A stretch of 64,000 nt of DNA from Micromonospora siamensis. Lineage in GTDB: Bacteria > Actinomycetota > Actinomycetes > Mycobacteriales > Micromonosporaceae. The notes beneath the pieces are model-generated. The model saw only the letters and a list, made by a program, of their open reading frames with translations, did not search any database and had not been told where the DNA came from. Of this stretch, positions 4,095-18,791 are shown one piece after another. A program made the translations under genes and the position numbers. Each line of letters begins with the position of its first letter. Positions within the stretch are counted from its first letter, which is position 1. Where the stretch lies: positions 4,030,001-4,094,000 of the forward strand of contig NZ_LT607751.1 of assembly GCF_900090305.1 (NCBI RefSeq). The letters are read 5' to 3'.

Positions 4095-5423
4095 TCAGTC
4101 GGGTTCCGGAAGTTTCGGCGTCGGCAGGGCGCTGGACGTGGCGGCGAGCCGGGCGGCCTGCCGGCGGCGGCGGGCCAGCAGGACCGCGCCTCCGGCGACC
4201 ACCAGGACGCCCGCCGCGGCGGCCGGCGTGCTGCCCGGCCACCCGCCGGCACCGCCGGTGGCCGTCCCGTTCAGCCCCGCGCCCCCGGCGAGCGCCGACG
4301 CCGCCACCGTCGCCGACGGGCTCGCGGACGTCGTCTCGCCGGGACGGACCAGCCGGCCCACCGACGCGTCGCGGGGCAGGGCGAACCCCCAGTCGAGCAG
4401 GGCGGCGCCCTGCTGCCAGCCGCGTTGGGTGGGGATCTCCGCGCCGAGCAGGGTCACCACCAGCCGCCGGCCGCCCCGCTCGGCCGCCCCCACGTAGGTG
4501 TGCCGGGCGACGTCGGTGAAGCCGGTCTTGCCGCCTAACGCCCCCGGGTAGTGGTCGAGCAGCTGGTTGTCGTTCTGGATCTGGAACGGCTTCTCGTGCA
4601 GGGCCGGCTGGCCGGGGATCTCCGCCACCCGGGTCGCGGTGTACCGGCGGAACGCCGGATCGGCGAAGCAGGCCCGGGCGATCAACGCCAGGTCGTACGC
4701 GCTGGTGAACTGGCCGGGCCCGTCCAGGCCGGACGGGGTGACGGCGTGGGTCTGGAGCGCGCCGAGCCGCCTGGCCTCCTCGTTCATCGCCCGCACCCCG
4801 CCGGCCAGCCCGTCGGGGCCCCCGCCGAGCCGGGCCAGGGCGTTGGCCGCCTCGTTGCCGGACTTCAGCAGCAGTCCCAGCCAGATCGTCTCGATCCGGT
4901 ACCGGCCGCCCTCGGCCAGGCCGACCGCCGAGCTGCCCGGCTCGATGGCCAGGTCCCCGGCGGTCAGGGTGACCTCCCGGTTCGGGTCCAGCCGCGGCAA
5001 CATGGTGGCCGCGAGCAGCAGCTTCTGCACGCTCGCCGGGCTGGCGTACTCGTGGGGGCCGCACCCGCCGAGCACCGCGCCGCTGTCCAGGTCGGCGACC
5101 ACCCACGAGGTCGCGGTGACCGGCGGCGGCGCGGGCGCCGACGGGGGCGTCACCAGGCCGGCGGTGGCCAGCGCCGCACCACCGACGGCCCGGGCGGCCG
5201 GGTCGGGCATGGGCGGCGGCTGCGGTGGCGGGGTGGCCGGGGCGGGGACGTTCGGGCACGGCGGCCCGGCGGCCAGCCGGCCGGCCCTGCCCGGCGCTCC
5301 GGTCCGGACCTGAGCCAGGGCGGGGTTCGGTGTGCCCGCCCTGGACCGGGCCAGGGCGGGCGCCGGCAGCGTCGACACCGGGGCGAGGAGGGCGGCGGCC
5401 AGCGCCGCGGACAGGCCTCTCAT
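4095..5423 (-). CDS. Secreted D-alanyl-D-alanine carboxypeptidase (peptidase S11), TTA codon
   Basis: 442-residue penicillin-binding-protein-type D,D-carboxypeptidase that trims the terminal D-Ala of peptidoglycan stem peptides outside the membrane. It has a signal peptide (MRGLSAALAAALL start), a Pro/Ala-rich linker, the serine motif SVQK near residue 131, SGN near 188 and KTG near 299. A C-terminal membrane anchor is followed by Arg-rich residues (GGAVLLARRRRQ). I prefer the ATG at 5423 over one at 5450: the signal peptide begins there and a TAGCCT box lies 8 nt upstream, as in a leaderless gene. The Leu codon just before GGKTG is TTA (complement of 4536-4538), rare in such genomes. A paralogue lies at 25947-27227. 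Confidence 0.93.
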   Translation of the reverse strand: MRGLSAALAAALLAPVSTLPAPALARSRAGTPNPALAQVRTGAPGRAGRLAAGPPCPNVPAPATPPPQPPPMPDPAARAVGGAALATAGLVTPPSAPAPPPVTATSWVVADLDSGAVLGGCGPHEYASPASVQKLLLAATMLPRLDPNREVTLTAGDLAIEPGSSAVGLAEGGRYRIETIWLGLLLKSGNEAANALARLGGGPDGLAGGVRAMNEEARRLGALQTHAVTPSGLDGPGQFTSAYDLALIARACFADPAFRRYTATRVAEIPGQPALHEKPFQIQNDNQLLDHYPGALGGKTGFTDVARHTYVGAAERGGRRLVVTLLGAEIPTQRGWQQGAALLDWGFALPRDASVGRLVRPGETTSASPSATVAASALAGGAGLNGTATGGAGGWPGSTPAAAAGVLVVAGGAVLLARRRRQAARLAATSSALPTPKLPEPD

Positions 5424-5431
5424 GGTCGCCG

Positions 5432-5437
5432 AGGCTA
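5432..5437 (-). promoter_or_regulatory. Putative -10 box of a leaderless transcript
   Basis: TAGCCT on the minus strand, exactly 8 nt before the ATG at 5423, and no Shine-Dalgarno sequence between. Matches the actinobacterial TANNNT -10 pattern, with transcription predicted to start at or next to the start codon. No good -35 is visible. The paralogous carboxypeptidase gene has the same arrangement. Confidence 0.45.
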
Positions 5438-5492
5438 GCCACGCCGACACGGACGGGTTGCCTGCTCAGCCGTTCGCGTCCGGCCGCCGTTG

Positions 5493-7424
5493 TCAGCGGG
5501 TAGGGTGCCGCCCACCCGGAGCCGGGCGGCCCGCACGCCGGGCACGCCACCGTCGCCCGCCCGCGCCGAGCGCCAGCCCGGTCGCGACGACCGCCAGCAG
5601 CAGCGCCGCCCGGTCCAGCACCGGTCGTAGCGGGGCCGCCGAGACGCGTACCGGGGCGGCGGTGGACGCACCGGCCGGGACGGTCCACGGGTGGGTGTCG
5701 GTGACCGGGGGCAGGCCGTCGCGGAGCACGGTCACCCCCACCCGCCACCGGCCGGGGCTGTGGATGTCGTCCACGGTCACCACCCAACCGTCGCCGGTGC
5801 GCGTGACCGGATGCACCGCCCGTTCCCCGTTCGGGCCGGTGAGCAGCAGCGACACCCCGGTCACCGGGCCGGGGGCCGGGCGGCGGGTGTCGTCGACGCC
5901 GACGCTGACGATGTTGCGTCCGGGCCGGTTCGGCCGCAGGGCCACGGTGTCGACCAGGTCGGACATCTGGCCGGTGACCTGCGGCTCGGCGCCCGCGACG
6001 GCGGTCGGCGGGAACGCCGGCCCCCGGCCCGGACCGGCGGCGGCGAGCGCCCCGGCCAGGCCGAGCGCGACGGCGAGCAGAGCGGCCTCGACGCGCAGCC
6101 CGCGCCGGGGCAGGTCGGTACGGCGCAGCCGCCGGGCGGTCCGCGCGCCGAGCAGCCCGGCCCCGACGGCCACGGCGACCTTGGCCACGAGCAGCAGCCC
6201 GTACGGGGAGCCGACCAGGGCGTCCACCGAGGCCACCTGCGGGCCGGTGAGCAGCAGCCCGGTGACGACCAGCAGGGCGAGGCAGGCCACGGCGAGGGTG
6301 GCGAAGGCCCGCAGCAGGGCGCGTACCTGCGGCGCACGGTCGGGGGCGTGCCGCAGCAGGGGCACCAGGGCCAGGGCGGCGGCCAGCACACTGCCCGCCC
6401 AGCCGCCGGCGGCGAGCACGTGCACCCCGCCGACCAGGGCGGTCCGCCAGGGGCCGCCCATCGGGTGACCGAGCAGCGCGGTGCCGGCGGCCGCCGCGAC
6501 CGCCCCGAGCGCGCCGACGACCACGGTCACCGGCACCCGGCGGGCCGGGCGACCGGTCATCGGCGCGCCCGACGCACGATCGACCCCGGCGGGCGGGAGT
6601 ACGTCCGGCGGGACGACGGGTGACGGGCCGTGGGCGATTCGGCGGGCGGCGAGCAGCGCCACCACCACCAGCGCGGCCGTGCCGGCCTCGCGGAGCAGCC
6701 AACGACCGCTGGTGAGCTGCGTGGCCAGCAGGCGCCACCGGTCGCCCGTCCCGGCCAGCTGGACGGCCAGCAGCAGGGGCGCGGCGAGCAGGGCGACGAT
6801 GCCCGCGTACCCGGCGACGATGAGCAACCGGCGGCGCGGCGCGAGCGCCGCCGGGTCGGCGCGGCGGGTGCCGGCGGCGTGCAGCGCGGCGAGCGCGGCA
6901 CCGCCGAGCAGCACCGACAGGCCGAGCAGGCCGACGGCGCGGGCGGCGGTCTCCCGGGGGCCGGGGCCGACCGGGCCGGCCACGCCGGCGGCGGTGACCT
7001 GCCGGCCGACGCCGAAGACCAGGGTGCCGCGGGTGGTGTGCAGGTCGTCGGAGGAGAGCGTCCGCCAGGAGACGTGGTACGTGTTGGGTGGCAGCGCGGG
7101 CAGCCCGGCGACCAGGGTGACCGGTTCCTCGCTGTCGGCGTCCTCGGCGAGCGGCGCGCCGTCGGTGTCGCGCAGCGCCAGCCCGGTCACCGCCCAGTGC
7201 CGGCCGTCCCCGTCGACCAGGCCGACCCGGGCGGCGGCGAGTTCCACGTGCTCGGTAAAGGCCAGGGTCAGCGTCTCCGGCGCCCGGTCCAGGACCGCGC
7301 CGTCGGCCGGCGCGCTGCTGGCCAGGTAGGCGTGGGCCTGCGCGGGCGCGGGTCCGGCCAGCACCGTCAGGGCGGCGACGCCGACGGCGAGCAGCAGCCG
7401 GCCGATCCGGGGCACGCCGGTCAC
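5493..7424 (-). CDS. CopC/CopD fusion copper protein
   Basis: 643-residue membrane protein. Residues 1-30 are a signal peptide, and mature residue 1 would be the His of HAYLASSAPADG, the usual N-terminal copper ligand of CopC. The CopC domain (to about 130) also carries FTEHVELA and SSDDLHTTRG. About eight membrane helices follow (about 155-470, the CopD domain). An extracytoplasmic C-terminal region (about 490-610, containing YtkA/FixH-like segments) ends in a last membrane helix and an Arg-rich tail. CopC-CopD fusions bind copper outside the cell and import it. The start GTG overlaps the stop of the gene before it (GTGA, 7421-7424), so the two are translationally coupled. As last gene of the cupredoxin operon it probably supplies or salvages copper for those proteins. 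Confidence 0.9.
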   Translation of the reverse strand: MTGVPRIGRLLLAVGVAALTVLAGPAPAQAHAYLASSAPADGAVLDRAPETLTLAFTEHVELAAARVGLVDGDGRHWAVTGLALRDTDGAPLAEDADSEEPVTLVAGLPALPPNTYHVSWRTLSSDDLHTTRGTLVFGVGRQVTAAGVAGPVGPGPRETAARAVGLLGLSVLLGGAALAALHAAGTRRADPAALAPRRRLLIVAGYAGIVALLAAPLLLAVQLAGTGDRWRLLATQLTSGRWLLREAGTAALVVVALLAARRIAHGPSPVVPPDVLPPAGVDRASGAPMTGRPARRVPVTVVVGALGAVAAAAGTALLGHPMGGPWRTALVGGVHVLAAGGWAGSVLAAALALVPLLRHAPDRAPQVRALLRAFATLAVACLALLVVTGLLLTGPQVASVDALVGSPYGLLLVAKVAVAVGAGLLGARTARRLRRTDLPRRGLRVEAALLAVALGLAGALAAAGPGRGPAFPPTAVAGAEPQVTGQMSDLVDTVALRPNRPGRNIVSVGVDDTRRPAPGPVTGVSLLLTGPNGERAVHPVTRTGDGWVVTVDDIHSPGRWRVGVTVLRDGLPPVTDTHPWTVPAGASTAAPVRVSAAPLRPVLDRAALLLAVVATGLALGAGGRRWRARRAGRPAPGGRHPTR

Positions 7425-7888
7425 CGCACCGGCACGTGGGCCAGGCGGCGCTGGCCCGACGTGATCTCGATGGTGTCGCCGCGTCGTACCGCGCCGTCCT
7501 TGTTCAGGTAGAGCAGGTAGTAGCTCTGGCCGGGGCGCAGCTCGTGGCCCTGCTTCATCAGCGCCGCCCGCCAGGCCAGCTTGCCGGAGCGCTCGTTGCG
7601 CAGCCGGGGCGGATGCTTCGTGTCGTTCTGGAAGGCGGACGCCTTCTGGGTGTCCAGCACCAGGTAGCGCAGCTCCACCAGGCCGCCGTCGCCCACCACG
7701 GCCGCCTGGGTGAAGCGGACGCCCAGGGCGGCCTCCAGCTGCCCGTCGTGCGGGACCGTGTAGCCCGGTCGGGCGGCGGCGTACCCGCCGAAGCGGACGA
7801 TCGAGATCGCGACCAGCGCCAGGACGAGCAGCGGGAGCACCAGCCGGCCAGGGCGGGGACGGGGGATGCGGAACGGGATCGCGGCCAT
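7421..7888 (-). CDS. Membrane-anchored extracytoplasmic protein of unknown function
   Basis: 155 residues. One membrane helix near residues 15-35 (LVLPLLVLALVAISIV) is followed by a hydrophilic domain that should face outside. I do not recognise a family. The domain contains DGQLEAALGVRFTQAAVV, a beta-rich middle (VELRYLVLDTQ), and a PGQSYYLLYLNKDG segment near the end. His residues are present but form no obvious copper motif. I chose ATG 7888 because GAGGAGG lies 7-8 nt upstream. It ends inside the start codon of copC/copD (GTGA overlap), so it belongs to the copper operon. A small copper chaperone or assembly factor for the cupredoxins is a reasonable guess, nothing more. Confidence 0.8.
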   Translation of the reverse strand: MAAIPFRIPRPRPGRLVLPLLVLALVAISIVRFGGYAAARPGYTVPHDGQLEAALGVRFTQAAVVGDGGLVELRYLVLDTQKASAFQNDTKHPPRLRNERSGKLAWRAALMKQGHELRPGQSYYLLYLNKDGAVRRGDTIEITSGQRRLAHVPVR

Positions 7889-7910
7889 CGTCGGGCCTCC
7901 TCGGGGGACG

Positions 7911-7938
7911 GTGGAGCCGGGCGGTGACCCGGCCCCAC
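7911..7938 (-). terminator. Stem-loop after the third cupredoxin gene (intra-operon)
   Basis: GTGG-A-GCCGGG pairs with CCCGGC-C-CCAC around a 5-6 nt loop, one mismatch, placed between the stop codon of the cupredoxin/Ig gene (7945) and the ribosome site of the next gene. There is no T-run. It may be a weak terminator or an mRNA-stabilising element that sets lower expression of the last two genes. Confidence 0.45.
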
Positions 7939-7944
7939 GTGGCG

Positions 7945-10914
7945 TCAGGGTGCGGTGTAGCGGGTGGAGGCGTAGTTGTCGAAGCTCAGCGAGCCGGTGG
8001 TGGTGGCGGTGCGGGCGACCAGGCCCAGCGCCGCCGACTCCACGGTCCGGCCGCTGGTGTCGCCGGTCAGCGTGCCGACGGAGACGGTGCCGACCTTGAG
8101 GGTGGCCGACCCCGCGGTGGCCGAGGCCCAGTCCAGCCGGACCGTGCCGCCGTTCGCGGCCACCCAACCGGTGTACGTCCAGCCGGCCGGCCGCAGCAGC
8201 CCGAGCCGGAACTGGTTGGTGGTGCCGTTGCGCCGGTACTGGACGACGGCCACCGCCGCGCCCGACGCGTTGGTCAACTGCTCGACGGTCACCACGGCGG
8301 TCTGCGGGTTGAAGGTGCCCAGAACGACGTCCGCCCTGGTGTGGATGGTGCGTTCCGCGGCCGGGGTGTCGTCGACGGCGTACCCGACGGTGCCGGCGAC
8401 GAGTTGGCCGGTGCCGGCCGACACCGTGCCGACCACCCGGGACCAGGCGCTGGTGCCTGTGGTGAACGCGTCGGCGAAGATCGCGTCCGGCGGGTCGACG
8501 GCGACGGTGACCGCGCCGGCCGTACCCCAGTTGCCCAGCGCGTCGCGGGCGCGGACCCGCAGGGTGTGGTTGCCGGCGCTGAAGCCGTTGAGGGCCACCG
8601 TGGCGGTGACGGCCGTGCCGGCGACCGTCATGGGACGGCCGTGGCCGACGCCGGGGTCGGCGCCCTCGTACCACTCGGCGGTGGTGACCGCGGAGGCCGC
8701 GTCGACGGCGGTGGCGCTCAGGGTGAGTGTCGCCGCCCGGGCGGTCGGGTTCGGGGTGGCGGTGACCGCGGTGACCACCGGTCCGGCGCGGTCCAGGGTG
8801 AAGGTGACCGGGGCCAGCGGGCCCCAGTTGCCGGCGCTGTCGCGGGCGTGCACCAGCACCTGGTGGGCGCCGTCGGCCAGCCCGGTCAGCTCGGTCAGCG
8901 GCAGCAGCCCGTAGGTGTTCTCGGTGGCGCCGTTGAACGACCCGTCGAGGGCGACGAAGGTGAACCCGGTGCCGTCGGCCCCGGCCACGTCGAGGAAGCC
9001 CTCCGCCGCGCTGACCACCGAGTGCACCCCGCCCGCGGTGGGGTCGGTGAACGCGGCGTTGATGCGCAGGCCGGTCGGGTCGGACGCGGAGCCCTGCCGC
9101 CCGTCGGTGGTGGCCGGGTCGACCGCGCCGGAGAGCAGGGTCGGCACGGTCCGGTCGACCACCAGGTCCGCGGTGGCGTACGGGCCCCACAGGCCGAACG
9201 AGTCGCGGGTGTGCACGAGCACGGTGTGCCGTCCCTCGGCCAGGGCGGCGGCCACCACGGCCGGGACGGTGCCCGACTCACCGGTGGCGGCGGCGCCCGG
9301 GTTGGCCAGGGCGAGCGGGGTGCCGGTGCCGTTGCCGCCGGTGGTGTCCACGAAGTATTCGGCGGCGGTGACGGTGCCGCCGAGGCCGGAGTCGTCGGCG
9401 GAGGCGGCGATCGTGATGTCGCCGGTGCCGGTGGTGGGGGTCGGGGTGAGCGTCACGCCGGTGGTGACCGCCCCGGTGACCGCCAGGTTGAGGGTGGTGC
9501 TGCCGACCACTCCCCAGTTGCCGGCGGCGTCGTGGCCGCGTACCCAGATGGTGTGCCGGCCCTGGGTGAGGGTGGTGAGCAGGTCGGCGGGGAGGGTGGC
9601 GGTGGCCCCGGTGACGGTCGGGCCGGCGCCGAAGCCCGCGCCGGTGAACGCCAGGCCGGTGCCCTCGGCGATCCGCAGGTCGTCGACGACCGCCTCGGCC
9701 CGGTCCACCACCGAGTTGCCGTTGCGGGCGTCGGTGAAGTCGGCGGTGACGGTCACCGTGTCCCGTACGCTCGCCGGATTCGGGGCGGCCCGCACGTTGC
9801 CGGCCGTCGGCCCGACGTGGTCGCCGCTGTCTGCGGGCGGGTTGGTGTCCAGGAAGGTCAGCATGCCGCCGAAGGCCTGCTGCGGGCTGACGCCGGTGAC
9901 CGTGACGCCGTAGCGCTGGCCGGCGTTGTTGAGCTGCCCGCCGGACTCGGCGAGGGCGAAGCGCCGCCCGTCCGGGCCGGCCGGAACGGCGACCACGGCG
10001 TCGACCGCCTGTCCGGGTTGCAGCGGCACGGTCACCGCCGCCTCCGGGTACGCGGCCGGCCGGGCGTCCTGCCCGACGATCGCCTGGTCCAGGCCGAACA
10101 GGGTCATCGGGTGCGGCTGCACACCGGCGGCGACGTAGCGCAGCAGCACGCGCCGGCCGACGTCGGTGGCGATCACGTCGGTCTCCGGGAACGCCTTGCC
10201 GTTGATCAGCCGGTACTTCGGCGCGTAGGCGCGCAGGTCGTAGCTGAGCGGGGCGGCGTTGAACGCCGGGTCCACCTCGGTGAGCACCAGCACCGCCTCG
10301 TCGTCGTAGACGCTGGTGGAGTCGCCGTACGCGCTGGGCCGCCCGCCGGCCGCGGGGGCGCGCACCACCAGCGCCCCGACCAGGCCCATGGCGACCTGCC
10401 GGGCGCCGAGGGCGGTGTGGCCGGCCTCGTACAGGTAGGTGCCGGGGCGGGTGGCGGTGAAGGTGTAGCTGCGGGTTCCGCCGGGCGCCGCGCCGGTGCG
10501 GTCCGGGGCGAGCCCGGTAACCGCCGGGAAGGCCAACGACAGGGCGTCGGCGAGTCCGTTGTGCACCGTGACGGTCACCCGCTGACCCTGGTCGACCACG
10601 AGCACCGGACCGGGCAGGGTGGCCGGCGCGGTGTCGGCGCCGGCGAACCCCCAGATCGGCACGGGTGCCGACGCGCCGGGCAGCACGACCGTGCCGGGCT
10701 TCGCCCACACGTCGCAGGTGGCCGTGCCGTCGCCGAGCCGGCAGCCGGTCTGCGGCAGCACGCCCTGTGGCGGGGCGGGGTCACCGGTCAGGGTCGCCGC
10801 CCGCCCGGTGGGTGTCGCGGCGGGTGGGGCCGCGGCGCGGGCCGGCGCCGGGCCGAGCGCCAGCAGCGCCACCGCCACCCCGGCGAGCAGCCGACGCGTA
10901 CGGGTCGATCTCAT
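7945..10914 (-). CDS. Secreted cupredoxin-like protein with Ig-like repeats, copper ligands largely lost
   Basis: 989 residues, exported by a signal peptide (MRSTRTRRLLAGVAVALLAL). Residues 80-370 form two multicopper-oxidase-like cupredoxin domains, but the copper motifs are degenerate. The usual HWHG position reads ALSLAFPA, the HCH position reads YEAGHTALG, and only HPMT (near 268) is kept in domain 2. The second HCH position reads ESGGQLNNAG. About four Ig-like or bacterial big-domain repeats follow (380-810; each includes a NPTA...TLTLSA-type strand and an AAE[GYW]F stretch). A jellyroll-like C-terminal region (about 816-989) ends in SFDNYASTRYTAP. ATG 10914 is preceded by GGGGAGGG. Third of three tandem paralogues, 20 nt after the previous gene. 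Probably a structural, non-catalytic or adhesive subunit. Confidence 0.88.
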   Translation of the reverse strand: MRSTRTRRLLAGVAVALLALGPAPARAAAPPAATPTGRAATLTGDPAPPQGVLPQTGCRLGDGTATCDVWAKPGTVVLPGASAPVPIWGFAGADTAPATLPGPVLVVDQGQRVTVTVHNGLADALSLAFPAVTGLAPDRTGAAPGGTRSYTFTATRPGTYLYEAGHTALGARQVAMGLVGALVVRAPAAGGRPSAYGDSTSVYDDEAVLVLTEVDPAFNAAPLSYDLRAYAPKYRLINGKAFPETDVIATDVGRRVLLRYVAAGVQPHPMTLFGLDQAIVGQDARPAAYPEAAVTVPLQPGQAVDAVVAVPAGPDGRRFALAESGGQLNNAGQRYGVTVTGVSPQQAFGGMLTFLDTNPPADSGDHVGPTAGNVRAAPNPASVRDTVTVTADFTDARNGNSVVDRAEAVVDDLRIAEGTGLAFTGAGFGAGPTVTGATATLPADLLTTLTQGRHTIWVRGHDAAGNWGVVGSTTLNLAVTGAVTTGVTLTPTPTTGTGDITIAASADDSGLGGTVTAAEYFVDTTGGNGTGTPLALANPGAAATGESGTVPAVVAAALAEGRHTVLVHTRDSFGLWGPYATADLVVDRTVPTLLSGAVDPATTDGRQGSASDPTGLRINAAFTDPTAGGVHSVVSAAEGFLDVAGADGTGFTFVALDGSFNGATENTYGLLPLTELTGLADGAHQVLVHARDSAGNWGPLAPVTFTLDRAGPVVTAVTATPNPTARAATLTLSATAVDAASAVTTAEWYEGADPGVGHGRPMTVAGTAVTATVALNGFSAGNHTLRVRARDALGNWGTAGAVTVAVDPPDAIFADAFTTGTSAWSRVVGTVSAGTGQLVAGTVGYAVDDTPAAERTIHTRADVVLGTFNPQTAVVTVEQLTNASGAAVAVVQYRRNGTTNQFRLGLLRPAGWTYTGWVAANGGTVRLDWASATAGSATLKVGTVSVGTLTGDTSGRTVESAALGLVARTATTTGSLSFDNYASTRYTAP

Positions 10915-10934
10915 CGTCGCCCTCCCCTGCCTGG

Positions 10935-12248
10935 TCACGCCGGGCACCCGGCGGGCGGGTCGATGCGGATCAGCGTCATCATCCCGCCGAAGCTCGCCCC
11001 GTAGTTGGTGGCCTGTTCCAGCGCGTGACTGTGCGCCACGTGGTAGTACTCGCCGCACTCGTTGTTCTGCACCACGCCGGGCGGCAGCTCCCCGGGCGTC
11101 CCACCGAGGTACGGGTTCTCCGCGAACCAGGTCTCCGGGCCGGGGCCGACGATCTGGTCCTGCAACGAGGGCAGCGGCACCGGGATCGGATTGCCCTGCG
11201 GGTCCCAGTGCTCGGCGTCCTTCCAGATCATCAGGGTGTCGACGGTCTGACCCGGTGAGACGTCGATGAGGAAGTTGGAGAAGGAGAGGTCCTGCCCGGT
11301 GGGGCCCTGCGCGGGCCGGCCGTCCCGGGCGATCAGCTGCTCGTCGCTGCCGTGCGGGTGGAACGGGTAGGCCACCGATCCGGCGTTGAGGTAGCGGATC
11401 AGCGCCGGCTTCGGGTTGCCCACCGGGTCGTACGGGCGTATGTGGATCAACGCCCCGTACGGCTGGGCGGGCAGCCACTCGGCGTGGTTGGGGGCGATGG
11501 TGTCCGGCATGCTGCGCCCGTTGATGGTGAAGTAGCGGGCCTTGTACCTCGTGAAGTCGTACGCCCGCCTGCGTTCGACGGCCAGGTGCAGGTCCGGGTC
11601 GATCTCGCCGAGCAGGTAGAGGTACTCGTGGTCGGGGTCGAACGCCGAGTCGGCCCGGTCGTTCTCCCGGTCCGGGTGGCCGGTGGGGCGGACCACGAGG
11701 GCGCCGTAGAGCCCCATCTGCACCTGCTTCTGGATGTCGGTGCCGGACTGGTAGAGGTAGGTGCCCGGCGGGCCGGCGGTGAAGGTGTAGGTGACCGCGC
11801 CGGTGTTCGCCGCGGCGGTGGTGGTCAGCGAGGTGAGGGTGCCGCTGGCGTCGGTCTCGGGCTGGGCCGGCCGCCCGTCGGCGAGCACCTGGGCCTGGCC
11901 GGGAAAGGTGATCGAGGTGGGCTCCGGCAGGCTGTTGTGCAGCACGACGGTCACCTTCGCGCCGGAGGTGACGCAGAGCGTCGGGCCGGGCAGCTGGAAC
12001 TCCCCGCCGCCGGAGGCGTAGCTCCACATGTAGATCGTGTTGCCGTCGGGCATGGCCGCGTACCCGCCGGTGGCGGTGAGGTCGAAGGCGTTGTCGGCGG
12101 CGGTCCGGCACTCCAGGCCGGCGGGCGGGCTGGCGGCCACCCGGTCCGGCCCGGGGACGACGAGCACGGCGACGACGGCCGCCGCGAGCGGCACCGCGCT
12201 CAGCCGCTTCCACCGGCCGAGGTTCGCAGGAAGCATCGGTACCCCCAT
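10935..12248 (-). CDS. Secreted multicopper-oxidase-like protein, copper ligands only in domain 2
   Basis: 437 residues. N-terminal signal/anchor (KRLSAVPLAAAVVAVLVV) and two cupredoxin domains. In domain 1 the copper positions are replaced (HNSLPEPTSITFPG near 103; GTYLYQSGTDIQ near 168). In domain 2 the ligands look kept: PFHPHGSDEQLIARDG near 294 matches the HPxHxHG site. EYYHVAHSHALEQ near 405 resembles the His-rich closing motif, though the usual Cys is absent. The preceding gene shows the opposite pattern. The start is either ATG 12248, one base after the upstream stop, or ATG 12236, which has GGGGG in front. The family oxidises metals or phenols with O2; the activity here is unknown. 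Confidence 0.88.
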   Translation of the reverse strand: MGVPMLPANLGRWKRLSAVPLAAAVVAVLVVPGPDRVAASPPAGLECRTAADNAFDLTATGGYAAMPDGNTIYMWSYASGGGEFQLPGPTLCVTSGAKVTVVLHNSLPEPTSITFPGQAQVLADGRPAQPETDASGTLTSLTTTAAANTGAVTYTFTAGPPGTYLYQSGTDIQKQVQMGLYGALVVRPTGHPDRENDRADSAFDPDHEYLYLLGEIDPDLHLAVERRRAYDFTRYKARYFTINGRSMPDTIAPNHAEWLPAQPYGALIHIRPYDPVGNPKPALIRYLNAGSVAYPFHPHGSDEQLIARDGRPAQGPTGQDLSFSNFLIDVSPGQTVDTLMIWKDAEHWDPQGNPIPVPLPSLQDQIVGPGPETWFAENPYLGGTPGELPPGVVQNNECGEYYHVAHSHALEQATNYGASFGGMMTLIRIDPPAGCPA

Positions 12249-12249
12249 C

Positions 12250-13509
12250 TCAGGCGTTCGCCCGGGTCTGCGCCGGGAGCGTGCCGGGCGGCGAGATCCG
12301 GATCTCGGTGAGCTGGCCGCCCCGCCCGCCGCCGGCGTTGGCCAGCGACGTCAGGTCGCGGTCGTAGAGCAGGTACGTGCCGGGTTCCGGTGCGGTGAGG
12401 ATGACGTCGCGGCTCTCCCCCGGTCCGATCTGCACGGTGCTGGTGACCTGGTACTCGGCGCTGCCGTCGCGGCCACGCAGCAGCGCGGCGTCCTTGCCGA
12501 CCACCAGCAGGTCGACACCGTCCACGGTGAGCGTGTGGTTCTGGTAGCCGAGGTTGGCCAGCCGCAGCAGCACCCGCTCCCCCGCGTTGGCGGTGATCAG
12601 CGACGAGATCGGCTGGTAGCGCAGCCGCCCGGCGGCCGGGCTGAGCGGGTCCCCGTTGGGGGCCAGGGTGTCCGGGTGGCAGCGCCCGTTGAGGGTGAAG
12701 AAGGAGGGCTTGTAGTCGGTCCAGTCGGTGGTCTGGATGTGCGCGTCCCGGTAGTGCGCCTCCGCCCACACCTCGCCGAGCATGAAGGCGAACTCACGGT
12801 CGTAGCGGGTGGTCCCGTCCCCGTCGTTGTAGACGTACCTGCCCGGTGGCACGTCCGCGGTGCCGGCGTTCTGCGTGGGCCGGACGTAGACGACGCCGGT
12901 CATGCCCATCTGCACGTGTTCGACGTCCTCGAAGTGGCAGTGGTACATGTACGTGCCGGCGTCGTGCGGTCGGAAGAAGTAGGTGAACTCCCGGCCGATC
13001 GGCACCGAGATGGACAGCTCCGGCACGCCGTCGAAGAGCGGGATGGCGTTGCGGAAGCCGTGCCAGTGCACGGTGTGCCCGTCGACCAGGTCGGGTCGTT
13101 GCGACAGCCCGAGGTTGGACAGCTTGATCGTGATGTCGGTCTCCTGGTCGAAGCCGAGCAGCGGGGCGCTGATCTGCGCCTTTCCCCGCTGGGCGGTCAC
13201 CTCCGTCGCCGACAGGCCGGTGACGTCGCGGAAGCCGAAGACGTACAGGTCGGAGCCGGCCGGGGCGAGCGGGTCCGGCCAGAACGGGCTGATCGGCGGG
13301 GAGCCCTGCGGCATGGAGACCCAGCCGTCGGTGGCGGCCAGGTGCAGGCTGGCCGTCGGGTTCGGCACCGCCCGGGGTAGCAGGGCCGCCGGCCGGCGCG
13401 GCTGGGCGTCGGAGCCGCTCTCCGGCAGGACCGCCCAGGTGCCCAGACCGGTGAGGCCGGCCAGCAGGGCACGCCGGCTGATGCTCCCCTGCCGTACGGG
13501 ATCGGTCAC
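12250..13509 (-). CDS. Tat-exported multicopper oxidase, copper ligands only in domain 1
   Basis: 419 residues starting at GTG 13509, with GAGGAGGA 5 nt upstream. The N-terminus (SISRRALLAGLTGLG) is a twin-arginine signal, as expected for a folded metalloenzyme. Domain 1 holds a full set of copper motifs: HTVHWHG near 146 and YHCHFEDVEHVQMGM near 185-200. The latter includes Cys, His and Met as in a type 1 site, with HxH pairs for the type 2/3 cluster. Domain 2 keeps one His (QNHTLTVDG), and its closing motif reads YLLYDRDLTSLANAGGG with no HCH. A trinuclear cluster normally needs His from both domains, so this protein probably needs a partner chain. The downstream gene starts one base after its stop. 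Confidence 0.9.
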   Translation of the reverse strand: MTDPVRQGSISRRALLAGLTGLGTWAVLPESGSDAQPRRPAALLPRAVPNPTASLHLAATDGWVSMPQGSPPISPFWPDPLAPAGSDLYVFGFRDVTGLSATEVTAQRGKAQISAPLLGFDQETDITIKLSNLGLSQRPDLVDGHTVHWHGFRNAIPLFDGVPELSISVPIGREFTYFFRPHDAGTYMYHCHFEDVEHVQMGMTGVVYVRPTQNAGTADVPPGRYVYNDGDGTTRYDREFAFMLGEVWAEAHYRDAHIQTTDWTDYKPSFFTLNGRCHPDTLAPNGDPLSPAAGRLRYQPISSLITANAGERVLLRLANLGYQNHTLTVDGVDLLVVGKDAALLRGRDGSAEYQVTSTVQIGPGESRDVILTAPEPGTYLLYDRDLTSLANAGGGRGGQLTEIRISPPGTLPAQTRANA

Positions 13510-13607: not shown

Positions 13608-16600
13608 TCAGCGGGGCCGGCGGGTCGGGGCGAGTGGGACCACGGGCAGTTCGTCGGCGCCCGCGTCGGGGTGCGGGAGCGCCCGGGGCTGCCCGTCGAT
13701 GTCGACGGGCGGGGCGACCACGGTGGTGGTGCCGTAGGTGCGGGTGAGGACGCCCAGGTCGCTGGCGGACGAGGTGGCGTCGGTGAGGTGCCAGTCGCCC
13801 ATCCGGGTCAGCGGCACCTGCTGGAGCACGATCACCGCCTGCCGGAAGGTCGGGAAGGTGCGGGAGGTGAGCACCGACACCGACACCGGGAACGGGTTGC
13901 GGAACCTGGGGTCGAGGCCCACCCGGTTGGTGGCGCTCGGCGCGGTGCCGGTGGTTTCCTGCAACACCGACTCGGTCGGGGTGAGCGGTCCGACCCCGTC
14001 GGCGGAGCCCATGTCCCAGTGCCGCACCGCCTCGCCGGCGGCGGCGCCGGCCGCGCCGATGCCGGTGACCGAGACGCCGTTCCACTCACCGGCCCGGTTG
14101 TCCCAGAAGACGTTGTCGAACATCTTCGGCCTGCTGAACGTGGGTGAGCCGGCCGGCAGGACCGCCTGGAGCTGGTCGCTGTTCGCGGCGGTGGACAGGC
14201 CGGCCGGAGCGGCGCGGCCGGTGCTGGTGGCCGCCGTGGCGGTGGTCAGGTTTCCGGCCACCGTGTTGGCCACGAACCGCACGTCCGGCGCGTCGTCGAG
14301 GGCGATGCCGCCGCCCTCGTGGGTGGAGATGTTGTCCACCAGCATGTTGTCGGTCACCGTGACCGGCACGTTGCCGACCTGGAGCAGCCGGACCCCACCG
14401 CCGTCGTCGTTGGCCAGGTTCGCCTCCACCAGGTTGCGGTCGATCGTGACCGCGCCGGAGCCGGGCGACAGCTTCGTCGGGTCCGCGGGCAGCTCACCGG
14501 CGACCATCACCCCGCCGGCCTCGTCGTACGACTGGTTGAGCCAGATCCGGTTGTTGGTGATCTTCCCGCCGGCGGAGCGGCCGTAGTGGCTGATCCCGCC
14601 GCCGTACTCGGCGGAGAAGTTGCCGCAGACCGCGTTGTGGTCCACCGAGTAGCCCGCGCTGCCGGCGAAGATGCCGACGCCACCGGCCAGGTTGGTGCCG
14701 CCGTTGTCCCGGATCTGGTTGCGGGCGACGCTGACGTGGTCGTTGCCGGTGTCCACGTACGGCGTGCCGATCCGGACGCCGCCCGCGTACGCGCCGCTGT
14801 TGGCGGCGATCACGTTGTCGGTGATCTGCGCATAGTGCAGCTGGGAGTGCAGGTAGACACCGCCGCCCTGGGTGATCAGCGCGCCGTCCGCGCCGACCGG
14901 GGTGTGCACGCTGCCGTTGGCGTTGACGTTGCCGGGGAAGTCGGACTGGTTTCCGCCGGTGATCCGGAGACCGGACACGGCCGGGGCGTTCAGCCGGGTG
15001 AACTGGTTCTCCCGGGCCAGCAGGGTTACCACGGCGCCGTCGGGTACCTCCGCCGGTGCGGCGTGCGGGGTGGACCGGACCAGGTCCACCCAGGCCGCGC
15101 CGGCCGGGTTGTCGATGCCGAAGCCCCGCCCGTCGAGCACCGACCCGGGGACGTACGTGCCGTCGGCGTACCGGCCGCCGGGGCCTACGCCGCGCAGCCA
15201 CACCGAGGAGTGCACGACCACGTTCTCGTAGTAGGCGCCGTACGGGTTGTCGGTGCCGGCGACGTGCGGCCAGACCGCGACGACGGCGGTGCCGCCGGCC
15301 CGGCTCGCCGCCTCGAGCGCCGCCTGGACGGTGGCGTACGTGGTCTCCCCCGGCCGGACCGCCGAGGCGGGCGGGTTGACCTGGAGCACCCGGGGGTTGC
15401 CGCGGCTGCCGGTGCCCGCGCCGTTGCCGACGATCTGGAGGGTGAGTCCGTCGACGGTCTTCTGGCCGTTGGCGGCGGTCACGCTGAGCACCGCCGCGCC
15501 GTGGGTCAGCTCGTCGGTCGGGTTGTCGCGGTTGGTCAGGGTGAGGGTGATCCGCCGGTCCGACCAGGAGGTCACGGTGACCCGTGGCGCCTCGGTGGGG
15601 TCGGCGAAGCCGGTGACGTCGACCCGCCCCGGGGTGGTGCCGAAGCCGCTGCCGGTCAGGGTGAGCTGCCGGTTCGGGTCGTTGCCGCGCAGGATCGGCC
15701 GGGAGGCGGCGTAGACCTGCGGGACGTCGGCGGCCGGGTCGCAGACCACGGCCCCGAGCTGCCCGGAGTCACCGCCGATGGCCACCGCCGCGACCTGGGT
15801 GGGCGCGGTGTCGGTCACCGTGTACAGGCCCGGCCAGGCCTGGAAGTTGGTGGCGATGGTGCGGTAGCGGGGGTTCCAGTTGGCGTTGAGGTGCCCCGGC
15901 TGGCCGGGGTCGTTGCCGACGAAGCGGTACATGTTCGGGCACGGCCCGGCCGGCAGCGGGCAGTTGTACGTGCTGGTCGACGGCTCGATCGCCTCGTACA
16001 TGCCGTTGAAGTCGGTGTCCACCGTGTCCACCAGCCGGCCCGCCCAGTCGTAGAGGCCGACCGGGACGTCCGGGAGGCCCTCCGCCTCGCCGAAGTTGCT
16101 GCTGCGCTTGTCCCGGGTGAGGCCGAGGTCGTTGATGACCAGCCCCCAGAAGTGGGTGGGCAGCGGGACCGGGGTGAAGAGGTTGAAGTTGGGGGCGCTG
16201 GCCTGCCCGGCGCGCACCTCGACCAGCTTGGTGTCGCACAGTGGGCGCGACTGGCCCTCGAACGGGCTGCCCCCGGCGTCGCGGAAGCCCGGGTCGGTGA
16301 CGTGCACGGTGTGCAGCGCGCCGGCACAGGAGGAGGTGATGCCGTTGCCCTGCGACGGCGGCTCACCCGGGTCGGGCTGCGGGTCCGGCGGCGCCGGCTG
16401 GTCGCCGGCCTGGTCCGCCGAGGGCGGGAAGTTCTCCTGGGGCAGGAAGCCGTCGCCGGCGAAGACGTTGACGTCCTCCTCCCGGGTCGGCTGGTACATC
16501 GCGCCACCGCCGACCGGGTTGTCCGGGCTCTCCACCGCGACCAGGTAGTCGTCGGGCGGCAGCGGCTGGGTCTGCCCGTCGGGCAGCGGGGCGTAGAGCG

Positions 16601-18791
16601 GCAGGTCGTCGTCGGGGCCCGGGTTGGCCGGGTCGCCCGGCGGGATCAGGTTCAGCTTCGAGTCGGCGAAGGCGTAGTTGCCGTTGACGGTCTGCCCGAA
16701 GTTGGTCGGGTCGTTGTCCGTGGGCGCGGCCTGGAAGCCCATCATCGGGGCCTCCACGCACATCTGGTTCGCCTCCCGACCGAATTCGGGCAGGGCCTGC
16801 TGGTCGGTCAGCGGCCGCCCGTCGAACATCCGCGCGGTGCAGCCACGCCCGGGCTGCCAGGTCTCCGAGGTGTACGCGTCGTTGAGCTCCGGCCCCTTCC
16901 GCAGCGACCCGTCCGCCTCGCGGACCGGCTCGCCGTCGGCGTCGCGCACCACCGCGTACAGGTGGACCTTCAGCCCGGGGATGCCCGGCTGGTACGGCTC
17001 GGTGACCGCGTACGCGGGGTCCAGCTCGTTGCGGGTGGTGTCGTAGGTGACGGTGCCGGCGATGCCGCCGTTCTCCGCCCCCCGGTACGGCTGCACCCCC
17101 CAGTCGACCCGGCCGGTGAGCCCGATGATGGGCAGCACGTCGACGTCGACGGCCGCGCCGAGCAGCGTGGTCGGGGTCGGCTCGTTGGGTGCCTGGAAGG
17201 TGATGCCGGTGGTCTTGTAGCGGGTGTTGAACGCCTCCAGCACCAGCCACCTGGTCAGCGGGTAAGCCTCCTTGATGGCGTAGTGCCCGGCGCTGTCGGT
17301 GACCACGCTGTTGGTGCCCTGGTCCATCAGGGAGTTGTCGCGTTCCTTGAGGACCACCGGGAAACGCGGCACGCCCTTCTCCCCCGGGTCCTGCCGGCCG
17401 TTGCCGTTGGTGTCGACGAAGACCGTGCCGGTGATCTCGGTGAACCAGCCGACCAGCGGCTTCGCCCCGACGTCGACGGTCCGCCCGCCGCTGACCGTGA
17501 CGTTGAACGAATCGAGCAGCATCTCCTGCGGGCCGTCCCAGAGGGTCAGCTGGTAGTCGCCGTCGGGCACGTTCGGGATCCGGAACGAGCCGTCCGCGCC
17601 ACCCCGGTCCAGGTAGACCATCCGGTCGCCGTCGCCCAGGTCGGACAGGGCCACCCAGGGCCGGGCCACCGGCCCGGCGATCTTCGCCCCGGCCACCCCG
17701 TCGGCCGGCAGCGTGACCCCGCCCTGGCCACCGACATAGGTGTACGCCTGAACGGCGGTGCCGGTGATCGCCCCGGACGCCGTGCCGGACAGCGGCGTCG
17801 GGGAGACGAACCCGAAGTCGACGTACGGCACCGGCTCACCGCCGAGGGTCTGCTCGGTGTCGTAGCCGGTGTCGCCCTCCTGCACCCAGACGTCCCAGTC
17901 GTGGCCGCCCTCCAGGGTGGTGGTCTGCACCCAGCTGCGTCCGCCGGGCGCGACGACCTGCGCCGCGTACCGGTCGGGGCCGAGGTTGGGGATGGTGATG
18001 TCGCCGTCGGCGTCGCTGCGGCAGCCGGTGGACTCCTCCGCGATCACCGGTCGGCCGTCGTCGTCGAAGACGACCCGACCGGTCGGGTGGTCGGCGTCCG
18101 GCGCGGTGTGCGCGTACCGCGTGCACAGCGGGTTGCCGTAGTAGTCGACGGTCACCTCGCCCATCACGTCGGCCAGGTGCGCGGTGAAACCGGCCAGCCC
18201 GTGCTCCGCGCCGACCTCGTACGTGCCGTCGACCGGCGCGGCGTCCTCGAAGACGCGCAGCCGCACGGTGCCCAGCGGCAGCGGGTACGGCTGCATGCCG
18301 ACGCTCACGTCGGTGGTCCGGCCCGGCGTCACGGTGAAGTGCTCTCCGTCGATCTTGTAGCCGTCGGCGGTGACCGAGATCAGGTAGCGGCCGGCGGGCA
18401 GGCCGTCCAGCGGCGTACCGGCGGCCAGGGTGTCCTGGTCGCCCTGGGCGACCACCGGCACCGCACCGGGGGTGTTGCGGATGGACGGCCAGCGGCAGTG
18501 GTCGGCGAAGTCCGGCGCGCTGGCCACCCCGGCGCGGGCCGGCAGGCAGTGCTCCGGGGCGTCGTGCGGGTCGCCGGAGTCGTCGGCGGTGATCAGCCAG
18601 TGGTAGGCGGACACCGGGTCGCCCCGCTGGACCTGCGGTCGCGGCCCGACCGTGCGGGCGCTCACCACGGCCAGGGTGATCGCGCCGGTGGTCGGTTCGG
18701 CGGCGGCCGGTCGCGGCGGTACGACGATCCCGACGAGCAGCAGGCAACAGGCGGACACGAACCAGCGCGGCCAGGTGGAACGACGCGGCAT
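13608..18791 (-). CDS. Giant secreted SdrD/TIG/beta-helix protein
   Basis: 1727 residues, the largest gene here and first of the copper operon. Residues 1-32 are a signal peptide (FVSACCLLLVGIVV). Residues about 100-430 hold carboxypeptidase-regulatory-like beta domains. Near 450-520 is an SdrD B-like domain (GTVFVDTNGNGRQDPGE). A region with several Cys follows, then an IPT/TIG-like domain near 1030-1100 (LTLTGSGFGTTPGRVDVTGF). Next comes a right-handed beta-helix (about 1140-1500), with rungs such as ITDNVIAANSGAYAGGV and GGGISHYGRSAGGKITNNRI. No membrane anchor or sorting signal is seen at the C-terminus, so it is probably released or bound by its partners. ATG 18791 follows GGGTGAGGG. It looks like an extracellular scaffold; a polysaccharide-binding or lyase role for the helix is possible. 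Confidence 0.88.
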   Translation of the reverse strand: MPRRSTWPRWFVSACCLLLVGIVVPPRPAAAEPTTGAITLAVVSARTVGPRPQVQRGDPVSAYHWLITADDSGDPHDAPEHCLPARAGVASAPDFADHCRWPSIRNTPGAVPVVAQGDQDTLAAGTPLDGLPAGRYLISVTADGYKIDGEHFTVTPGRTTDVSVGMQPYPLPLGTVRLRVFEDAAPVDGTYEVGAEHGLAGFTAHLADVMGEVTVDYYGNPLCTRYAHTAPDADHPTGRVVFDDDGRPVIAEESTGCRSDADGDITIPNLGPDRYAAQVVAPGGRSWVQTTTLEGGHDWDVWVQEGDTGYDTEQTLGGEPVPYVDFGFVSPTPLSGTASGAITGTAVQAYTYVGGQGGVTLPADGVAGAKIAGPVARPWVALSDLGDGDRMVYLDRGGADGSFRIPNVPDGDYQLTLWDGPQEMLLDSFNVTVSGGRTVDVGAKPLVGWFTEITGTVFVDTNGNGRQDPGEKGVPRFPVVLKERDNSLMDQGTNSVVTDSAGHYAIKEAYPLTRWLVLEAFNTRYKTTGITFQAPNEPTPTTLLGAAVDVDVLPIIGLTGRVDWGVQPYRGAENGGIAGTVTYDTTRNELDPAYAVTEPYQPGIPGLKVHLYAVVRDADGEPVREADGSLRKGPELNDAYTSETWQPGRGCTARMFDGRPLTDQQALPEFGREANQMCVEAPMMGFQAAPTDNDPTNFGQTVNGNYAFADSKLNLIPPGDPANPGPDDDLPLYAPLPDGQTQPLPPDDYLVAVESPDNPVGGGAMYQPTREEDVNVFAGDGFLPQENFPPSADQAGDQPAPPDPQPDPGEPPSQGNGITSSCAGALHTVHVTDPGFRDAGGSPFEGQSRPLCDTKLVEVRAGQASAPNFNLFTPVPLPTHFWGLVINDLGLTRDKRSSNFGEAEGLPDVPVGLYDWAGRLVDTVDTDFNGMYEAIEPSTSTYNCPLPAGPCPNMYRFVGNDPGQPGHLNANWNPRYRTIATNFQAWPGLYTVTDTAPTQVAAVAIGGDSGQLGAVVCDPAADVPQVYAASRPILRGNDPNRQLTLTGSGFGTTPGRVDVTGFADPTEAPRVTVTSWSDRRITLTLTNRDNPTDELTHGAAVLSVTAANGQKTVDGLTLQIVGNGAGTGSRGNPRVLQVNPPASAVRPGETTYATVQAALEAASRAGGTAVVAVWPHVAGTDNPYGAYYENVVVHSSVWLRGVGPGGRYADGTYVPGSVLDGRGFGIDNPAGAAWVDLVRSTPHAAPAEVPDGAVVTLLARENQFTRLNAPAVSGLRITGGNQSDFPGNVNANGSVHTPVGADGALITQGGGVYLHSQLHYAQITDNVIAANSGAYAGGVRIGTPYVDTGNDHVSVARNQIRDNGGTNLAGGVGIFAGSAGYSVDHNAVCGNFSAEYGGGISHYGRSAGGKITNNRIWLNQSYDEAGGVMVAGELPADPTKLSPGSGAVTIDRNLVEANLANDDGGGVRLLQVGNVPVTVTDNMLVDNISTHEGGGIALDDAPDVRFVANTVAGNLTTATAATSTGRAAPAGLSTAANSDQLQAVLPAGSPTFSRPKMFDNVFWDNRAGEWNGVSVTGIGAAGAAAGEAVRHWDMGSADGVGPLTPTESVLQETTGTAPSATNRVGLDPRFRNPFPVSVSVLTSRTFPTFRQAVIVLQQVPLTRMGDWHLTDATSSASDLGVLTRTYGTTTVVAPPVDIDGQPRALPHPDAGADELPVVPLAPTRRPR

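Follow-up and report, generated by a model that had tools for sequence, protein, structure and literature searches.

The 64,000-nucleotide stretch of Micromonospora siamensis DNA analysed here (the window) encodes, on its minus strand, three adjacent multicopper-oxidase-like proteins, MCO1, MCO2 and MCO3, among which the copper ligands of a single active site appear to be divided. MCO1 has kept one half of the site, MCO2 the other, and MCO3 neither, a pattern found in three phyla. We propose, with a probability of roughly 0.83 judged from the sequences, that the three proteins diverged into subunits of a single oxidase, which is obligately hetero-assembled, probably as a 1:1:1 ring, and descends from a homotrimeric oxidase of the type C two-domain kind.

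Copper ligands divided between paralogous genes

The three genes and the ligand motifs of MCO1 and MCO2 are as follows; the counts refer to the loci described in the next section.

12250..13509, minus strand: MCO1, two cupredoxin domains, with the half site that bears the type 1 (T1) copper in domain 1 and a ligand-free domain 2
10935..12248, minus strand: MCO2, two cupredoxin domains, the first ligand-free and the second with a four-His half site
7945..10914, minus strand: MCO3, two cupredoxin domains without copper ligands and a tail of about 600 amino acids with immunoglobulin-like repeats
13054..13077, minus strand: HTVHWHGF, MCO1 residues 145-152; all three His in 79/79 loci and 16/16 new loci
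12901..12942, minus strand: HCHFEDVEHVQMGM, MCO1 residues 190-203; C191, H192, H198 and M203 in 79/79 loci, H190 in 78/79, all in 16/16 new loci
11349..11360, minus strand: HPHG, MCO2 residues 297-300; both His in 76/76 loci and 16/16 new loci
11025..11033, minus strand: HSH, MCO2 residues 406-408; both His in 76/76 loci and 16/16 new loci

Following canonical oxidases, we take H145, C191, H198 and M203 of MCO1 to be the T1 copper ligands, and H148, H150, H190 and H192 to be its half of the trinuclear cluster. M203 was preferred to M201 as the T1 Met because the M201 position is also Met in the T1-free domain 1 of MCO2 (76/76), where the M203 position is mostly Leu (69/76). At the motif positions of MCO1 domain 2 stand NHTLTVDG and YDRDLTS, and the HxH is gone. 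In MCO2, domain 1 is ligand-free (PTSITFPG and YQSGTDIQKQVQMGL) and domain 2 holds a four-His half formed by H297, H299, H406 and H408. MCO3 reads LSLAFPA, YEAGHTALGARQVAMGL, QPHPMTLFG and LAESGGQLNN at these positions, with no ligand pairs. T1 ligands in the N-terminal domain are thus confined to MCO1, and the full complement, a T1 site plus eight His for the trinuclear cluster, is reached by MCO1 and MCO2 jointly and by neither alone. Since the type 2 (T2) and both type 3 (T3) coppers each need, in the scheme familiar from multicopper oxidases, His of both chains, no single chain would hold one of them fully liganded.

The original prediction for this stretch had described three such genes in tandem: the first with HWHG and HCH...M in domain 1 and no HCH in domain 2, the second with its domain 1 motifs lost and HPHG and HSH-type motifs in domain 2, and the third with nearly all its ligands lost and immunoglobulin-like repeats gained. 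All three frames are open where they had been placed, and each description agrees with the sequence, MCO3 having neither half site. Two details change. The HWHG of MCO1 is part of a longer HxxHxHG that includes the T1 His, so that MCO1 holds the whole T1-bearing half. The span given for the set, 7421..13509, does contain MCO1-3, but its start takes in a 155-amino-acid protein that is not one of the three.

Conservation of the split across three phyla

Relatives of MCO1 were collected by scanning one genome per species (84,980 species) with six peptide patterns, all taken from MCO1, and the best 80 of 99 relatives were kept, representing 79 distinct loci; the closest locus among these, from Micromonospora mirobrigensis, is 96% identical over MCO1. 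One of the patterns contained the HCH motif, so the conservation of HCH in the 79 loci is partly built in, and for this reason the ligands were read again on loci that a profile search had identified. No such bias affects the other MCO1 motif, MCO2 as a whole or the profile-found loci. Of 19 profile-found split clusters read, L148, L154 and L156 are identical to L046, L038 and L043, leaving 16 new loci, of which L159 and L143 lie near loci already in the set (98% to L074 and 95% to L072, respectively). The ligand counts exclude L158, whose MCO2 is frame-broken, the broken clusters L139 and L140, and L138; eight other Micromonospora genomes and the genomes G579 and G467 lay outside the ligand reading.

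The loci belong to Actinomycetota, Chloroflexota and Bacillota. All eight MCO1 ligands are present in 94/95 loci and all four MCO2 His in 92/92, HTxHxHG is unbroken in 79/79 MCO1 loci, and each of the 16 new clusters keeps all twelve ligand positions. At the lost motif positions, HxH does not return in any MCO1, MCO2 or MCO3 row read (0 of 96 rows at the second motif of MCO1 domain 2); shifted HxH strings occur near lost positions in two cases, MCO2 of L063 and MCO3 of L035. MCO2 lies directly downstream of MCO1 in 76/79 loci, the remaining three being contig ends, and MCO3 follows MCO2 in 75 loci, some of them cut or frame-broken. Near-invariant in 79 loci and holding in 16/16 profile-found ones, the ligand pattern is not a product of chance, and these alignments indicate that the split is old and strict.

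Co-occurrence of MCO1 and MCO2 and the genomes that lack MCO2

Searches with the MCO1 profile identified carriers in 8/394 Actinomycetes genomes and 9/101 Micromonospora genomes (the source genome included in both), 14/299 Bacillota genomes (E below 1e-100) and 7/301 Chloroflexota genomes (E below 1e-150). A second match adjoined MCO1 in every Chloroflexota (7/7) and Micromonospora (9/9) carrier. The MCO2 profile, run on the Actinomycetes and Bacillota samples, recovered the same 8/394 and 13 of the same 14 carriers, and among those 394 and 299 genomes none had MCO2 (E below 1e-100) without MCO1. In genome G467, the two genes are on different contigs. By open-frame length, no fused three-in-one form was found among the MCO1 orthologues of the Bacillota sample, a measure that is uninformative in high-G+C genomes, while the protein search is blind to chains more than 1.75 times the query length.

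Two genomes have MCO1 and no detectable MCO2.

L138 (genome G445), 8657-9691 and 7613-8656, minus strand: MCO2-less cluster with MCO1 and MCO3
L140 (genome G569), 4549-6043, plus strand: broken cluster with MCO1 in two frames, an MCO3 fragment and the first gene of the cluster in two frames

In G445, a genome search with the MCO2 profile matched only MCO1 and MCO3. The MCO1 frame of this locus is open over 344 codons. Tyr replaces H148 and H192 and Glu replaces H150, whereas H145, H190, C191, H198 and both Met are retained. A T1 site that outlives the trinuclear half is what would be expected if that half serves only together with MCO2, and we regard this as strong evidence, though not proof. 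The L138 protein may now be a one-copper electron-transfer protein. The genome search with the MCO2 profile did not find MCO2 in G569 either; this second case is weighed below.

Ancestry of the three genes

Relatives encoded by a single gene fall into two size groups, a longer one of 474-569 amino acids (L124-L137, from 13 genomes of Bacillota and one of Chloroflexota) and a shorter one of 374-389 amino acids in two further Chloroflexota genomes (L144 and L145); a further single-gene relative, in G403, was outside the 16 read. Read by eye, both halves of the site are present in one chain in 13/14 of the longer and 2/2 of the shorter proteins, or 15/16 in all. In L129 (4816-6240, plus strand), also a single, the motifs are damaged in both domains (HTVHILG, HCFAEASEH and YVHGG), with HNH kept.

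Homologues with both halves intact in one protein had been named in advance as evidence against a site formed between chains. Such proteins do occur, but in separate clades, and they are not orthologues of MCO1 or MCO2. In a tree of 51 rows (a tree of 88 rows was also made), MCO1, MCO2 and MCO3 form one clade each (support 100/99, 100/97 and 99/93), and the longer singles form a separate one (100/95). Because the singles stand in clades of their own and resemble the homotrimeric ancestral form, they explain the split rather than refute it. The Bacillota are set apart inside each of the MCO1, MCO2 and MCO3 clades (89/84, 100/98 and 99/92 in the same tree). Under midpoint rooting, which does not fix the order of duplication, MCO2 and MCO3 are sisters and the singles stand beside MCO1. 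Most simply, the gene of a homotrimeric two-domain oxidase would have been triplicated once, early on, after which ligands were lost reciprocally and the genes were inherited or transferred together.

A fused chain from Chloroflexota shows a comparable distribution of ligands.

L146, 572-3019, minus strand: fused chain of four cupredoxin domains, 815 amino acids, with a plastocyanin-like end by eye

Its domain 1 carries HTIHLHG and HCHQNNVEHQQMGM, domains 2 and 3 are blank, and domain 4 carries HAMHLHG and HDH. In the 51-row tree, both halves of L146 group with the singles L144 and L145 (100/99), apart from MCO1-3, and since they fall outside those clades, reciprocal ligand loss seems to have arisen twice independently, once in trans and once in cis.

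A proposed hetero-assembled oxidase

In the homotrimeric relatives, each chain combines a T1-bearing half in domain 1 with a four-His half in domain 2, and each trinuclear cluster forms at the contact between domain 1 of a chain and domain 2 of its neighbour. We suggest that the gene was triplicated and that the copies lost ligands reciprocally, MCO1 keeping only the domain-1 half, MCO2 only the domain-2 half and MCO3 neither. Electrons would then enter at the T1 copper of MCO1 and pass to a trinuclear cluster that reduces O2 and draws four of its His from MCO1 and four from MCO2. With the cluster His divided in this way, no chain would be an oxidase alone. MCO3 would most likely fill the third place in the ring, and the resulting 1:1:1 heterotrimer would have a single active site. 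A heteromer, rather than a homotrimer, is what the ligand pattern favours.

The original prediction that the active site forms only between different chains gains support from the strict complementarity of the ligands across three phyla, from the constant presence of MCO1 in MCO2 carriers in two genome samples and from the loss of trinuclear-half His in the sole unbroken MCO1 of an MCO2-less genome. The ligand pattern and its conservation, the three clades, the co-occurrence and this exceptional genome are observations; the physical complex, its stoichiometry, its copper loading and its oxidase activity are inferred. The fuller history seems probable to us, although with less assurance than the shared site: an obligate heterotrimer produced by triplication and reciprocal loss, maintained in three phyla, with the loss repeated in a fused four-domain chain, would be a trans-assembled counterpart of ceruloplasmin.

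Fold comparison, covariation and C-terminal tails

By sequence, the best PDB relatives are 3g5w, the blue copper oxidase of Nitrosomonas europaea, and 2zwn, a two-domain laccase from a metagenome, both of which we take to be type C and the former presumably a trimer; for MCO2 alone, 7rab came first in one search. The two also rank with the best relatives by fold. Structure models of MCO1 and MCO2, each made as a single chain, align with 3g5w across both domains in the fold comparison (Foldseek and VIA), and the MCO3 profile aligns over residues 101-346, with the two-domain fold kept. In domain 2 of 3g5w, HTHG is aligned to the HPHG of MCO2 and HDH to its HSH, the score around HSH being very low. 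Ceruloplasmin was matched in the profile comparison and is outside the 50 fold matches listed, an absence without meaning.

Among the top 100 covarying pairs, 45 join MCO1 domain 1 with MCO2 domain 2, the predicted interface (26.9 expected), and 16 join the two motif regions (1.1 expected). The count of 45 exceeds all 40 shuffles made within five broad groups (mean 34.9, highest 41). There is a 2.6-fold excess (16 of the top 50) for an unpredicted combination, MCO1 domain 2 with MCO2 domain 2, and none for the two other contacts predicted for a ring (MCO1 domain 2 with MCO3 domain 1, 4 of the top 50; MCO3 domain 2 with MCO2 domain 1, 0 of the top 50). The covariation between MCO1 and MCO2 is only suggestive of contact.

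The comparison of tails and conservation set aside seven loci in which MCO3 runs into the contig end. Of the 68 loci compared, 43 have a C-terminal tail of at least 120 amino acids on MCO3 and 14 have one on MCO2; 11 lack it on either protein and no locus has two, counts that hint that one tail per complex may be enough. The loci with a tailless MCO3 and an MCO2 tail of 145-255 amino acids are L047, L048, L050, L051, L053, L055, L056, L058, L060, L061, L062, L064, L067 and L077; none of the four of these tails that were scanned had a Pfam match. MCO3 is the least conserved of the three proteins, with domain scores of 0.558 and 0.545 versus 0.643-0.695 for the others.

Evidence against a shared site and alternative explanations

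Several observations weigh against a hetero-assembled oxidase. The MCO2 model is poor in domain 2, where residues 357-400 and 402-425 fall below 50 in predicted local distance difference test (pLDDT) score. For both models, the copper nitrite reductase 4kns ties with 3g5w by fold, so fold alone cannot tell an oxidase from a nitrite reductase. The covariation count does not rise above shuffles within finer groups (mean 43.9 with 14 groups and 44.5 with 29), and as the signal survives shuffling within finer clades, shared ancestry could produce it. The distribution of tails follows clades as well. One metagenome assembly, L008, has L at H190. The His loss in an unbroken, MCO2-less MCO1 is known from one genome, and the MCO1 of L140, in two frames and also without MCO2, retains both HTIHWHG and HCHFEPVEHIQMGM, a counter-case that could be accounted for by recent breakage or by faulty assembly.

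The ring itself has a variant in which the shared site is real and the working unit consists of MCO1 and MCO2 only, for instance as a four-domain heterodimer or a dimer of dimers, with MCO3 as an accessory or attachment protein outside the ring. This arrangement, whose odds concern stoichiometry within our preferred reading and are not additional to it, is one we find doubtful. It is in keeping with L146, where both halves lie in one four-domain chain and a third unit is absent, and with the weak conservation of MCO3. Nevertheless, MCO3 keeps the two-domain fold of ring subunits, follows MCO2 in the 75 loci mentioned and survives in L138 despite the loss of MCO2, and solved two-domain relatives are trimers, as stated in PMC13151041. 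A split form of the six-domain manganese oxidase MnxG would likewise supply six cupredoxin domains in total and one complete site, and the Bacillota proteins read lack an export signal by eye, as expected of spore-surface oxidases. Here, however, domain 1 of MCO1 holds the T1 site and domain 2 of MCO2 its partner, which is the type C side of the interface, and we consider a split MnxG improbable. In its simple form, this account was rejected on published positions: for bacterial six-domain oxidases, PMC3600357 reports a T1 site in domain 2 and a cluster that domains 2 and 3 share, which corresponds to the opposite side of the interface.

The remaining alternatives do without a shared oxidase site. 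MCO1 alone might be a homotrimer with T1 and a partial site, like copper nitrite reductase, with MCO2 binding copper separately. Copper nitrite reductase (NirK) has a T1 copper and one T2 copper between chains, with an inter-chain His from domain 2. MCO1 domain 2 lacks HxH at the second motif, where NirK takes that His; moreover, the MCO2 half site is invariant in 92/92 loci, in a form needless for another use, and in L138 the trinuclear-half His go when MCO2 goes, all of which make this option quite improbable. Finally, the proteins could be decaying or purely structural surface proteins from which no oxidase is made. The ligand-free MCO3, the damaged sites of L129 and the broken clusters L139 and L140 would suit such decay, but the twelve ligand positions are near-invariant over three phyla and a CopC-CopD relative often lies downstream, and we give this explanation very little credence.

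Gene neighbourhood and possible location

The oxidase genes belong to a longer cluster, whose other members in the window are:

13608..18791, minus strand: large protein, 1727 amino acids, with CarboxypepD_reg-like, SdrD_B-like and beta-helix matches in the family scan; first gene of the conserved cluster
7421..7888, minus strand: small protein, 155 amino acids, with a hydrophobic stretch near its start by eye
5493..7424, minus strand: CopC-CopD fusion (PF04234, PF05425), likely involved in copper supply

The run is compact and reads, on the minus strand throughout, from the large protein through MCO1, MCO2, MCO3 and the 155-amino-acid protein to CopC-CopD, with gaps of one base between MCO1 and MCO2 and of 20 between MCO2 and MCO3. 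The family scan gave no Pfam or NCBIfam match for the 155-amino-acid protein. A relative of the large protein is found upstream of MCO1 in 77/77 loci having room or a match, one of the 155-amino-acid protein after MCO3 in 53/63 loci with room, and one of CopC-CopD downstream on the same strand in 41/63 loci with room. The presence of CopC-CopD in the operon argues for a metal-loaded enzyme. The Oscillochloris locus L036 (91-14859) has genes of two cluster copies in tandem, and the Bacillota loci L063, L068, L070, L073, L075, L079 and others have no relative of the 155-amino-acid protein or of CopC-CopD beside the oxidases.

Export signals were judged by eye. In the window, all three oxidases and the large protein have starts resembling such signals, twin-arginine-like in MCO1 (SRRALLAG), as does the large protein in L149 and L151; none was seen on the three oxidases in the eight Bacillota loci read or on the large protein in the five Bacillota copies read. 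Some of these Bacillota are spore formers, and CotA and MnxG are spore-surface oxidases, so that by analogy a spore-surface location in Bacillota is a reasonable guess. The usual candidate substrates are metals and phenols. Several of the named Bacillota genera, such as Moorella and Thermincola, are anaerobes, which makes the role of an O2-reducing enzyme in them puzzling.

Comparison with known systems

In the open-licence PMC literature, no heterotrimeric or split multicopper oxidase was found, and an earlier report elsewhere is possible; of the terms for heteromeric multicopper oxidases, only heterodimeric laccase matched, in 10 articles whose titles concern mostly fungi. Sequence databases give these proteins no consistent name: of 7995 scored proteins, 3846 had an E of 0.001 or lower, a set that is not confined to MCO1, and the best 120 of the 3846 are variously named multicopper oxidase, called hypothetical protein or left nameless. 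Many database proteins named plain multicopper oxidase may be inactive if expressed singly.

Fungal heterodimeric laccases are, like the enzyme proposed here, made of two different chains; there, however, a chain that is a full laccase by itself is paired with a small subunit that is not a laccase, and the copper site is not shared. The Mnx complex of Bacillus, which contains MnxG, is likewise a multi-subunit copper oxidase, but only mnxG encodes a multicopper oxidase, MnxE and MnxF being reported as without similarity to characterised proteins. A copper site shared between chains is otherwise known between identical copies or, as its counterpart, within one long chain. The parts of this oxidase are familiar, and what appears to be new is the division of its active site between paralogous genes.

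The closest likeness is to the type C two-domain oxidases, with which MCO1, MCO2 and MCO3 share two cupredoxin domains per chain and, as a group, the N-terminal T1 motifs and the four-motif pattern. Solved two-domain relatives form trimers, according to PMC13151041. In type C enzymes, both trinuclear halves are in every chain of a trimer of one protein, whereas here they lie in two genes with the third blank: MCO1 lacks the domain-2 half, MCO2 the domain-1 half and MCO3 both. Ceruloplasmin and hephaestin, as described in PMC3600357, also have six cupredoxin domains and retain one cluster of a presumed three after ligand loss. Theirs, however, is a single chain with the cluster between domains 1 and 6, whereas the six domains in the window come from three separate open reading frames, and it is an N-terminal domain that holds the T1 site beside the cluster. 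Duplication, fusion and the shedding of excess copper sites are thought to have turned small symmetric oxidases into large ones such as ceruloplasmin. Intact singles, the three-gene split, the fused four-domain form and a lineage that has lost a partner are all present in sequenced genomes, which opens the intermediate steps to experiment; the MCO1-3 system appears to follow the route of ceruloplasmin minus the fusion.

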